From assembly GCF_020171315.1 (NCBI RefSeq), contig NZ_JAIUZP010000006.1, positions 1 to 64,000 on the forward strand: a stretch of 64,000 nucleotides of DNA. Direction: 5' to 3'. The stretch is from Pseudooceanicola nanhaiensis. GTDB lineage: Bacteria; Pseudomonadota; Alphaproteobacteria; Rhodobacterales; Rhodobacteraceae. Below the pieces are notes generated by a model that made no database searches, was not told the origin of the DNA, and saw only the letters and a list, made by a program, of their open reading frames with translations. The position numbers and the translations under genes were made by a program. Shown here one piece after another: positions 50,734 through 55,269 of this stretch. Numbering within the stretch: position 1 is the first letter of the stretch; every line of letters begins with the position of its first letter.

Positions 50734-51789
<1,056 letters not shown>

Positions 51790-51812: not shown

Positions 51813-53993
51813 TCAAAGCGAACAGGACACGCAGCCCTGCACCTCGGTGCCTTCAAGGGCCATCTGGCGCAGGCGGATGTAGTAGATCGTCTTGATCCCC
51901 TTCTTCCACGCGTAGATCTGCGCCTTGTTGATGTCGCGCGTCGTGGCCGTGTCCTTGAAGAACAGCGTCAGCGACAGGCCCTGATCCACGTGCTGGGTGG
52001 CCGCGGCATAGGTGTCGATGATCGCCTCGGCGCCGATCTCGTAGGCGTCCTTGTAGTATTCGAGGTTGTCGTTCGACATGAACGCGGCCGGGTAATAGAC
52101 GCGGCCGATCTTGCCCTCTTTGCGGATCTCGACCTTGGCCGTGATCGGGTGGATCGAGGAGGTCGAGTTGTTGATGTAGCTGATCGAGCCGGTGGGCGGC
52201 ACGGCCTGAAGGTTGCGGTTGAAGAGACCGTCCTTGACCACCGCATCGCGCAGCGCGGCCCAGTCCTCACGGGTGGGCACGGCGACGCCGAACTTCTCGA
52301 AGAGCGCCTTCACCGTCTCGGTTTCGGGCAGCCAGTCGCGATCAACGTATTTGTCGAAGAAGGTGCCGTCGGCGTATTTCGACTGTTCGAAGCCCTTGAA
52401 GACGGCGCCCCGCTCCTTCGCCAGGTTGTTCGAGGCGCGCAGCGCATGGAACAGCACGGTGCAGAAGTAGATGTTGGTGAAATCAACGCCTTCGGTGCTG
52501 CCGTAGTGGATGCGTTCCCGCGCGAGGAAGCCATGCAGGTTCATCTGGCCGAGGCCGATGGCGTGGCTTTCATCGTTGCCGCGACGCACGGAGGGGACCG
52601 AGTCGATGGCCGACATTTCCGACACCGCGTTCAGCGCGCGGATCGAGCTTTCGACCGTACCCGCCAGGTCGCCGCCGTCCATCGCCTTGGCGATGTTCAT
52701 CGAGCCGAGGTTGCAGGAGATGTCGGTGCCCAGGTGCTTGTAGCCGAGGTCCTCGTTGAACTCCGACGCCTCGTTCACCTGCAGGATTTCCGAGCAGAGG
52801 TTCGACATGGTGATGCGGCCCGCGATCGGGTTCGCCTTGTTCACCGTGTCCTCGAACATGATGTAGGGATAGCCGCTCTCGAACTGGATCTCGGCGATCG
52901 TCTGGAAGAACTGGCGCGCGTTGATCTTCTTCTTCTTGATCCGCGGGTTGTCCACCATCTCGTGGTATTTCTCGGTCACCGAGATTTCCGAGAACGGGCG
53001 GCCATAGACCTTTTGCACGTCATGCGGCGAGAAGAGGTACATGTCCTCGTTCTTCTTCGCGAGCTCGAAAGTGATGTCCGGCACCACGACACCCAGCGAC
53101 AGCGTCTTGATGCGGATCTTCTCGTCCGCATTCTCGCGCTTGGTGTCGAGGAAACGCAGGATGTCGGGGTGGTGGGCGTTCAGATAGACCGCGCCTGCGC
53201 CCTGACGCGCGCCCAGCTGGTTCGCGTAGGAGAAGCTGTCTTCCAGCAGTTTCATTACCGGAATGACGCCCGAGGACTGGTTCTCGATCCCCTTGATGGG
53301 GGCACCATGCTCACGGATGTTGGTCAGCATCAGGGCGACGCCGCCACCGCGTTTGGACAGTTGCAGGGCCGAGTTGATGCCGCGGCCGATGCTTTCCATG
53401 TTGTCTTCCAGACGCAGCAGGAAGCAGGAGATCAGCTCGCCCCGCTGGGCCTTGCCGGCGTTCAGGAAGGTCGGCGTGGCGGGCTGGAAGCGGCCACCGA
53501 TGATCTCTTCCATCAGCTTCATGGCGTCGGCCTCGGACCCGCGCGCAAGCGCGAGCGAGACCATGACCACGCGGTCCTCGAAGCGTTCGAGGTAGCGCTT
53601 GCCGTCGAAGGTCTTCAACGTGTAGCTGGTGTAGTATTTGAACGCGCCGAGGAAGGTCGGGAAGCGGAACTTCTTGGCATAGGCCGCGTCCCAGATCTTG
53701 CGCAGGAAGGCGCGGTCGTACTGCTTCAGCACGCTGTCCTCGTAGAAGCCTTCTTCCACGAGGTAATCCAGCTTCTCGTCCAGCGAGTGGAAGAAGACGG
53801 TGTTCTGGTTGACGTGCTGCAGGAAATACTGGCGCGCGGCCATGCGGTCCGCATCGAAGCGGATCTTGCCGTTCTCGTCATAGAGATTCAGCATCGCGTT
53901 GAGCGCATGGTAATCCAGCCCCTGCCACTCGGCCGGGACGCCTTTTGCGGGGGCGCTGTCAGTCAGCTCGCGGTCGAGAATTGCGTCTTCCAA
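51813..53993 (-). CDS. nrdE: Class Ib ribonucleotide reductase alpha subunit
   Basis: About 726 residues. The best start is TTG at 53993 ([10 protein letters not shown]), overlapping nrdI by 31 bp with AAGGA upstream; the frame extends but the added part belongs to nrdI in another frame. Active-site cysteine region [25 protein letters not shown] strand, [12 protein letters not shown] and the C-terminal redox pair in GCVSCSL. No ATP-cone is present, as is usual for NrdE. Reduces ribonucleoside diphosphates. Confidence 0.93.
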
Positions 53994-54379
53994 AACTTGT
54001 CCAATCCTTCTGAGACGCGGGTGACATCTCCGTCGGTTCCCGCCAGTTCGAAACGGTAGAGCACGGGCACCTTGCACTTGGCGGCGATGACGTCGCCGGC
54101 CATGGCAAAGGTGGTGCCGAAATTGCGGTTGCCCGAGGCGATGACCCCGCGCAGCAGCCCGCGGTTGCGGGCATCGTTGAGGAAGCGGATCACCTGCTTG
54201 TGCACCGCGCCCCGGCCCTGCCCGTCCGCGTAGGTCGGGCAGATCAGGACGAAGGGTGCGTCAGGCGCAGGCAGCGCCGCCTCCGGGTCGATCGGGATTC
54301 TCTGGGCAGGCAGGCCCAGCCGGGTCACGAAACGCGCCGTGTTCTCCGACCGGGAGGAATAGTAGACAAGCCCGCCCAT
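53963..54379 (-). CDS. nrdI: NrdI flavodoxin
   Basis: 138 residues from ATG 54379 (one codon longer from 54382). Flavodoxin-like [22 protein letters not shown] and [13 protein letters not shown] loops typify NrdI, which supplies oxidant to build the Mn(III)2-tyrosyl radical of NrdF. Begins 4-7 bp after nrdH and overlaps nrdE. Confidence 0.92.
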
Positions 54380-54386
54380 CATCCGA

Positions 54387-54608
54387 TCAGGCCAGGGCAG
54401 CGATCTTGTCGGGACGGAAGCCGGCCCAGTGGTCGTCACCGGCCATGACGACGGGCGCCTGGCGGTAGCCGAGCTCGGTCACGCGGGCCATGGCGTCGGC
54501 GTCCTGGGTCAGGTCGACCAGTTCGAAATCCAGCCCCTTGGCGTCCAGCGCGCGGGTGGTGGCGGTGCATTGCACGCAGGCGGGTTTGGAATAGACGGTG
54601 ATGGTCAT
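54387..54608 (-). CDS. nrdH: Glutaredoxin-like NrdH
   Basis: 73 residues with thioredoxin-like CVQC motif ([15 protein letters not shown]), conserved APVV and the [12 protein letters not shown]-terminus. Electron donor for NrdE. Its ribosome site AAGGGA (54616-54621) sits seven bases before ATG and can be sequestered by the riboswitch expression platform. Confidence 0.95.
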
Positions 54609-54735
54609 CGGGCAGTCCCTTGCTCTGACATCCTCTGGTGGCGTGAGGGACGGAGAGGCCGACGCGCGCCGCCCGGAGAGGCGCCGCGGTCCACATCCCC
54701 GGACCCTCCGTCCGGTGTGGTTCTTCTGCTGTCCT
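54609..54735 (-). promoter_or_regulatory. Translational expression platform of the nrdH riboswitch
   Basis: Minus-strand leader with mutually exclusive pairings: CGGAC/GTCCG (54700-54714) closes a local hairpin; GGACGGAG (54706-54713) could instead pair with CTCCGTCC (54648-54655); and GTCCCT (54646-54651) can pair with AGGGAC of the nrdH ribosome site (54615-54620). No T-run is present, which fits translational control. Confidence 0.65.
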
Positions 54736-54894
54736 GGCAGGTCTTCTGACTCGCGGCTCCAATCGCACCGGCCCCCCTTCCCGGCATGACACCAGTGGAT
54801 ACGGGACCTTGGCTCACCGCTCACAGCTACGGGGGTAGTACCGGAATTCCACCGGCTTCCCTCTTGCCTCGGGGCGTCACACCCCCAGAGCACC
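54736..54894 (-). ncRNA. Cobalamin (B12) riboswitch
   Basis: Read on the minus strand, the segment shows the cobalamin aptamer core in order: GGTG, GGGAAGCCGGTGGAATTCCG, CTACCCCCGTAGCTGTGA, GAGCC, CCACTG, GGGAAGG and the B12-box end GCGAGTCAGAAGACCTGCC. All main conserved blocks match the Rfam cobalamin pattern as remembered. It lies in the leader of nrdHIEF and should shut it off when B12 is available. Confidence 0.92.
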
Positions 54895-54898
54895 AAGA

Positions 54899-54944
54899 CC
54901 CCTGCATATTGTGCCGATTTTGCAAAAGTGTCAACATATGGTGT
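54899..54944 (-). promoter_or_regulatory. nrdH promoter with two NrdR-like boxes
   Basis: Minus-strand -35 TTGACA (54929-54934) and -10 CAATAT (54906-54911) with a 17-bp spacer. ACACCATATGTTGACA (54929-54944) and a weaker GCACAATATGCAGGGG (54899-54914) resemble NrdR boxes and lie 30 bp apart, covering both promoter elements. Confidence 0.7.
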
Positions 54945-55201
54945 GCCATGGGTGGCTTTTGCTGAACACCGCGCAAGACATTGTTTTCATGGGAAGAGCG
55001 GGGTTTCGGGCCGCCCTGCTGGCGATCACGTTTCCCGCGCCCTGCCCAATATCTTGTCGTGCCCCCGAAGCCAAGAGCAGAGCCGCCCCTGCAAAGCGCA
55101 TTTCCACACGTCAGCGCGGGCAAATCTCGGGGTGCCGGAGAATCGCTCACGCCCTGTGCAACGGCACGTCGGGCCGTCGGAGACACGGGGGCCCGGACAC
55201 G

Positions 55202-55230
55202 AAAACGGCGCCGGAAGACCGGCGCCGTTT
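55202..55230 (-). terminator. rpsB-tsf terminator
   Basis: Minus-strand stem AAACGGCGCCGG with CCGGCGCCGTTT (55203-55230) followed by TTCG, 40 bp after the tsf stop. Confidence 0.8.
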
Positions 55231-55269
55231 CCAAGAGATACGAGCTGCAGCGCGGGGCTGCGGCAGGGC

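Follow-up and report, generated by a model that had tools for sequence, protein, structure and literature searches.

The RNA that precedes the class Ib ribonucleotide reductase operon nrdHIEF in the window, the whole 64,000-nucleotide stretch of DNA analysed here, is very probably a B12 sensor that shuts the operon off when B12 is plentiful. We put the probability that a cobalamin riboswitch turns off nrdHIEF translation with B12 present, taken as a whole explanation, at about 0.85. It is read from the letters of the DNA: an aptamer match, the gene order, a set of competing pairings with family-wide support, and the presence of class II reductases. If true, an apparently B12-auxotrophic bacterium picks its DNA-precursor enzyme by means of a B12-reading RNA, with class Ib as the only deoxyribonucleotide route once B12 runs out. 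The reach of B12 control over reductases would then include class Ib and two large orders of Alphaproteobacteria, and it would become possible to test directly how NrdR and a riboswitch act together on a single short leader. The switch type is known; its use on class Ib is little documented, and we do not claim that it is unpublished.

An Rfam search places a full-length cobalamin riboswitch aptamer (RF00174, model positions 1-189) at 54912-54719 of the minus strand, the strand of all features below unless stated, with 119.4 bits (E 2.3e-29) against a gathering score of 31.5; it is the sole Rfam gathering match within the 64-kb window. An earlier note on this DNA had proposed a cobalamin riboswitch on a class Ib reductase operon and named the Rfam model as a check, and the match directly before nrdHIEF bears it out. 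The span given in that note, 54609-54894, runs from inside P1 to the base preceding the nrdH ATG (54608-54606), and the Rfam match begins 18 nt upstream of it. The 5' strand of P1 (GUCUUGG, 54893-54899) pairs with CCAGGAC at 54737-54731. Loop L5 (ACCCCCGU, 54829-54836) is complementary to ACGGAGGGU of L13 through 8 pairs and one bulged A, which is consistent with a kissing loop. The window aptamer presumably binds a corrinoid. In the window genome (4.8 Mb, 30 contigs, 99.91% complete), a whole-genome search found two cobalamin riboswitches and recovered the window aptamer as one of them. The other precedes a TonB-dependent receptor gene, of which 403 residues were scanned; the top match was a B12 receptor model, below cut-off as a fragment.

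Directly downstream of the aptamer and on its strand lie nrdH (54387-54608; glutaredoxin-like redoxin, TIGR02194, 102.2 bits, cut-off 85.75), nrdI (53963-54382; class Ib assembly flavoprotein, TIGR00333, 153.3 bits, cut-off 74.65), nrdE (open frame 51813-54077; class Ib large subunit, TIGR04170, 1226.7 bits over residues 55-754, cut-off 750) and nrdF (50734-51762; class Ib small subunit, TIGR04171, 480.6 bits, cut-off 355). For nrdE the true start probably lies further downstream than 54077: the match to its family sets in at 53915. Upstream on the same strand, tsf ends 0.36 kb before the aptamer. It is followed at 55200-55232 by a strong, GC-rich inverted repeat (GAAAACGGCGCCGG..CCGGCGCCGTTTCC), probably the tsf terminator, which, if real, would separate tsf from the nrd promoter.

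Between the aptamer and nrdH, the earlier note had described a local hairpin, an anti-sequestering pair and a ribosome-site pair in competition, and a letter-by-letter check located all three. The local hairpin (54715-54710/54704-54699), which follows the B12 box, is the P13/L13 arm of the riboswitch, an identity that the note missed; it reads CCGGAC-GGAGG-GUCCGG (54699-54715) and has an outer stem of CCACA (54720-54716) with UGUGG (54695-54691). The anti-sequestering pair joins 54713-54704 (GGACGGAGGG) to 54657-54648 (CUCUCCGUCC), thereby spanning 54648-54713; its formation disrupts P13 and occupies some of the covering strand of the ribosome site. In the sequestering pair, GUCCCU at 54651-54646 joins AGGGAC at 54620-54615; this pair covers the nrdH ribosome-binding site AAGGGA (54616-54621) and competes with the anti-sequestering pair for 54651-54648 (GUCC). 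The strength of the anti-sequestering pair was reached in 2/200 shuffles and two overlapping helices of the window's strength in 4/2000; the ribosome-site pair alone is unremarkable (48/200 shuffles as strong). On the transcribed strand there is no T run longer than 1 between the aptamer and the nrdH ATG and thus no intrinsic terminator, and the sole terminator-like site of the scan lies on the plus strand. Mutually exclusive helices, one of them over the ribosome site, with no intrinsic terminator, point to an OFF state set at translation.

Folding of the platform as a whole (54722-54590) is just slightly better than that of shuffles (-60.4 kcal/mol, z -1.43; 18/200 shuffles as good). Left free, the platform has a minimum-energy fold that lacks an intact P13, whose 5' strand pairs with 54649-54640 in a shifted register, so that the strand 54656-54646, covering strand included, is nearly all engaged; the GGG of the ribosome site pairs with the CCC right before the ATG, and the site is therefore not fully open. 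With P13 imposed and L13 blocked the energy is -53.6 kcal/mol, and the ribosome site pairs with 54654-54650 in a neighbouring register. Forcing the exact 10-pair anti-sequestering helix gives -52.3 kcal/mol. On these simple energies, which ignore the aptamer, the difference between -60.4 and -53.6 means that B12 would have to pay about 7 kcal/mol. The three-state logic holds, but the exact pairs are provisional: the program joins the strands named above in registers that are shifted, which slightly lowers our confidence in the explanation as a whole.

Support for the platform extends to the Rhodobacterales-type leaders. L13 reads NGGNGGG in 42/47 and L5 reads CCCCCG in 43/47, and the arms of P13 covary: counted from the loop, pairs 2, 3 and 4 are standard in 39/42, 42/42 and 36/42 leaders, each above the maximum of 1000 shuffles (36, 33 and 34, respectively). 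Pair 1 is invariant, and pairs 5 and 6 (34/42 and 23/42) lie within the shuffle range. These conserved loop patterns and the covarying P13 match the L5-L13 kissing loop known in cobalamin riboswitches (PMC9600662). Within the 47 leaders there is no covariation between the L5 and L13 loops, L5 being nearly constant. The idea that the middle L13 base covaries with L5 was considered and rejected, since that base is A, T or C against a nearly constant L5, and the base is hence taken as bulged. The flanks of L5 and L13 in the window (A..U) differ jointly from the common form; other leaders break the pattern and we make no claim from it.

The effect of these pairings on the ribosome site was modelled by folding 39 leaders free and with L13 blocked and P13 imposed, mimicking B12. 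On average, the probability that the ribosome site is unpaired dropped from 0.39 to 0.27 (shuffled-platform controls: 0.46 to 0.43), and L13-blocked accessibility was below the control median in 34/39 leaders, which are related and do not amount to 39 independent tests. In the window it fell from 0.60 to 0.35, a change as large as this occurring in 1/60 controls. By leader, accessibility fell by >0.1 in 15/39, was unchanged in 11/39 and rose in 3/39, and the change was matched by <=5% of a leader's own controls in 10/39. Individually, the anti-sequestering helix is significant in 5/42 leaders and the ribosome-site helix in 8/42; relatives differ in how clearly the switch can be read. Six duplicates, leaders without the L13 pattern and leaders with fewer than 3 P13 pairs were dropped, leaving 42 leaders scored for helix strength and 39 for folding; a leader titled Lautropia (L034) was kept outside the group tests, and L037, with no nrdH, was omitted.

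Just upstream are two NrdR-box-like sites and an overlapping TTGACA, all missed by the earlier note. The -35-like TTGACA (54934-54929) falls inside site 1 (ACACCATATGTTGACA, 54929-54944). Site 2 (GCACAATATGCAGGGG, 54899-54914) lies 30 bp away and contains CAATAT (54911-54906), a weak -10-like sequence at 17 nt from the TTGACA. The pair of sites scores 22/28 against an NrdR consensus; it is the best in the stretch at distances 28-34, and 22 was reached in 0/200 shuffles that kept letter content only. As they read, box 2 and the -10 are imperfect, and the -35/-10 pair failed a simple promoter scan, which found no promoter in the region. Two palindromes about 31 bp apart (30 in the window) and an nrdR gene over cut-off in the same genome suggest membership of the NrdR regulon. 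NrdR, sensing the nucleotide pool, would probably bind these two sites over the promoter and control transcription of the operon, and the promoter-like position predicts a transcript that starts next to P1, with its 5' end at 54903-54898. In the window together with the best 80 of at least 586 confirmed NrdE stretches, a set of 81 loci that is not a census, 67/81 leaders have a box pair whose score is reached by <=10/200 shuffles, and the commonest spacing was 31 (35/81). The same spacing is given for the E. coli nrdHIEF promoter region, with two 16-bp NrdR boxes 15 bp apart (PMC12176259); in the window the linker is 14 bp and box 2 abuts the aptamer. The word riboswitch is absent from the main text of that paper on NrdR control in E. 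coli.

Two class II reductase loci in the window genome exceed the TIGR02504 cut-off, their open frames being 806 and 1235 aa long; one locus has a 761-aa protein with a score of 579.8 bits. The earlier note had assumed a class II partner, had named nrdJ as the gene to look for and had allowed that a genome with no class II enzyme would speak against it; nrdJ was found, at two loci. Class I large subunits come up in this search as well (NrdE of the window genome did, and there is a response in E. coli); it shows only three loci, with no class Ia seen in the genome. NrdD, of the class III enzyme NrdDG, was not found there either, so class Ib appears to be the genome's only B12-free reductase. 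CobN and CobJ were likewise not found in this genome; the cell thus appears unable to make B12 and, in its absence, appears reliant on nrdHIEF. Where B12 represses a B12-free isozyme, one expects the genome to carry a B12-dependent isozyme too. Auxotrophy as the driver of keeping nrdHIEF was rejected as a wider rule: CobJ is missing in 10/29 genomes with NrdE and 67/219 without (Fisher p 0.67), and keeping nrdHIEF is therefore not linked to lost B12 synthesis, in a comparison that assumes both draws to be the same 248 family genomes and takes NrdE genomes absent from the listed matches as lacking CobJ (20 of the 77 no-match genomes were named). Near 338855-338903 of a contig of the window genome (G000:C4, L154), beside the large nrdJ, lies a box-like pair with a score of 22/28 at distance 31; the other nrdJ has no box pair as good (best score 17). 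NrdR may control both reductase classes.

Put together, the proposed mechanism would run as follows. The transcript would start adjacent to P1. With B12 bound, L5 would hold L13 and the P13 hairpin would stay folded, so that the strand around GUCCCU could close over the nrdH ribosome site by pairing with AGGGAC (OFF). With no B12, the 5' strand and loop of P13 would pair with the covering strand and the ribosome site would open (ON). Class Ib would thus be made only when the two B12-dependent class II enzymes cannot work, and the operon beyond nrdH would presumably be affected as well. Such a scheme had been anticipated by the earlier note, in which B12 represses nrdHIEF as class II takes over; the aptamer, the operon, the three-way switch and the class II enzymes stand, and it is the sign of the response that we infer.

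Riboswitch and class II enzyme also go together among relatives. An nhmmer model built from 29 of 30 listed matches (one incomplete locus was omitted) found an aptamer within 600 nt before nrdH in 64/81 loci (the window and the best 80 of at least 586), in Rhodobacterales and Rhizobiales. NrdE occurs in 29/248 family genomes of an even draw and in 5/289 genomes of a class-wide draw, which was of little use; 24 of 33 loci from those 29 family and four class-level genomes have the aptamer, 6/33 repeating species already sampled. The NrdJ table comprises 82 genome rows less 4 duplicates, or 78, of which G164 (352 bits, under cut-off) and G475 (contig end) were unscored. Among the remaining 76, 55 have the riboswitch and NrdJ over cut-off, 0 the riboswitch without NrdJ, 13 NrdJ without the riboswitch and 8 neither (Fisher p 1e-5; p 0.002 leaving out four loci with actinobacterial titles), p values that shared ancestry inflates, since related species do not give independent counts. 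Most of the 55 positives were called by nhmmer only; for the negatives Rfam served as a check, apart from the four actinobacterial loci, which were searched with nhmmer only. One positive, G506 (L122), was not confirmed by Rfam, and moving it to the negatives gives p 1.7e-5. G443 and G274 were counted as negative though no nrdH was found, and leaving G443 out gives the same result. Two Rhodobacter-family genomes lacking NrdJ, L084 (placed by title) and G507, are both without the riboswitch. Eight of the 13 exceptions with NrdE and NrdJ are Paracoccus by title (L024, L028, L030, L039, L040, L046, L049, L053); the others are L016 (Haematobacter), G433, G484, G443 and G274. Rfam found no aptamer before the operon in any searched stretch of the 13, and class II therefore does not require the riboswitch. 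Weak or degenerate aptamers stand before nrdH in L018 (43.6 bits), L019 (37.1 bits, L5 altered) and L035 (39.1 bits), and that of L122 falls below the Rfam threshold; in these four, decay may be in progress.

We regard it as rather unlikely that the aptamer works but sets its OFF state at transcription, by Rho-dependent or other termination or by RNA decay, with occlusion of the ribosome site a by-product or just the first step. Translational occlusion in bacteria often exposes RNA to Rho, which lends this reading some general plausibility. The Streptomyces nrdABS operon is also described as under transcription control (PMC4991794), yet in the window the transcribed strand has no T run for an intrinsic terminator, and covering of the ribosome site exceeds chance on average over the 39 folded leaders. 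Translational shut-off by B12 remains our preferred explanation, and it has two further competitors. It is improbable that the RNA responds to a different corrinoid, or serves chiefly to report cobalt or metal status, in place of choosing between reductase classes. Cobalamin riboswitches do respond to several corrinoids (PMC9600662), and class Ib uses manganese or iron (PMC6754363), so that other metal signals may matter; against this, presence of the riboswitch tracks the B12-dependent reductase, in related species whose counts are not independent. Most improbable of all would be a decayed, inert relic of an ancestral switch with NrdR alone controlling the operon. The weak aptamers of L018, L019 and L035 and the eight Paracoccus loci that lack an aptamer in genomes carrying NrdJ fit such an outcome elsewhere, but the window aptamer scores 119.4 bits and has L5, P13 and the platform in place.

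Published cases of B12 control over B12-free reductases already exist for class Ia and class III. The Streptomyces coelicolor nrdABS operon has a B12 riboswitch (Borovok et al. 2006, cited in PMC4991794), in agreement with the earlier note's remark that such control of class Ia is known from Streptomyces. Like the window, S. coelicolor combines a cobalamin riboswitch before a B12-free reductase with a class II NrdJ in the genome; it differs in being an actinobacterium with a class Ia enzyme described as controlled at transcription, whereas in the window the enzyme is class Ib and the predicted switch acts on translation. B12 elements precede nrdDG in Desulfovibrio vulgaris and Desulfuromonas (PMC545781), and the same source states the logic that where NrdJ is present B12 represses the B12-free isozyme. 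That logic is the one proposed for the window, although these are delta-proteobacteria and NrdDG is not class Ib. In the alphaproteobacterium Caulobacter crescentus, B12-dependent translational shut-off was measured for the metE and btuB riboswitches, according to PMC6538847 the only B12-riboswitch genes of its strain. These resemble the switch predicted for the window in shutting off translation of a B12-free isozyme or an importer; their targets are a methionine synthase and an importer, not a reductase. The earlier note held that control of nrdHIEF is much less documented in this lineage, and this fits the open-licence literature searched, whose titles and abstract openings do not name a B12 riboswitch on nrdHIEF in alphaproteobacteria. 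PMC3766115, which includes Rhodobacterales and Rhizobiales, counts 'isozymes of B12-dependent enzymes' among cobalamin regulons; 'nrd' is absent from its main text, and the nrdHIEF case may be in its tables.

The leaders of Rhizobiales type have another form. In 34 of them (L043-L087), from the window and best 80 of at least 586 stretches, the B12 box stands 264-424 nt from nrdH. A pattern search found in 31/34 a hairpin CUUCGGGGUGAAG, or a near form, with a ribosome site and an AUG within 2-4 nt; the frame that follows has 11-28 codons and ends 98-224 nt before nrdH in 31/34. By eye, L050, L052 and L055 have a variant of this arrangement. Chance alone would put a short frame behind any AUG; the case for a leader frame lies in the conservation of the ribosome site and the AUG. 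Six of seven second riboswitches of Rhizobiales loci (L055, L059, L067, L068, L069, L072) have, by eye, GGGGTAAGG or GGGGTATG right before the apparent start of a gene that we take to be metE, recognised by eye. The metE ribosome site (GGGG-type) looks like the one in the nrdH leader frames; the hairpins at metE and at nrdH share only some features, which counts slightly against the leader-frame reading. Between clades the leader-frame peptides vary widely, so what matters may be the act of translation and not its product. Mycobacterium tuberculosis offers a demonstrated case of a B12 riboswitch that works together with a translated leader frame (PMC11260477). In the Rhizobiales form, the ribosome site under B12 control would be that of the short leader frame, and B12 would act on nrdHIEF through its translation. 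Tentatively, and with somewhat less than even confidence, we suggest one conserved alphaproteobacterial module, with NrdR at the promoter and B12 in the RNA, that has evolved two output stages: direct occlusion of the nrdH ribosome site in Rhodobacterales and translation of a leader frame in Rhizobiales.

Other arrangements were seen among the sampled loci. L008, L010, L120, L136, L143 and L144 have a second cobalamin aptamer match upstream on the opposite strand, and so form divergent riboswitch pairs. L013, titled Nocardioides marinus, has the same NrdJ coordinates as a genome of the window's family (G593), and its species label looks wrong. L034 is titled Lautropia dentalis, which we take to be a betaproteobacterium; it carries nrdHIEF with a cobalamin riboswitch and a NrdE 83% identical to the window's over the best segment, possibly through transfer from alphaproteobacteria or on a mislabelled contig.
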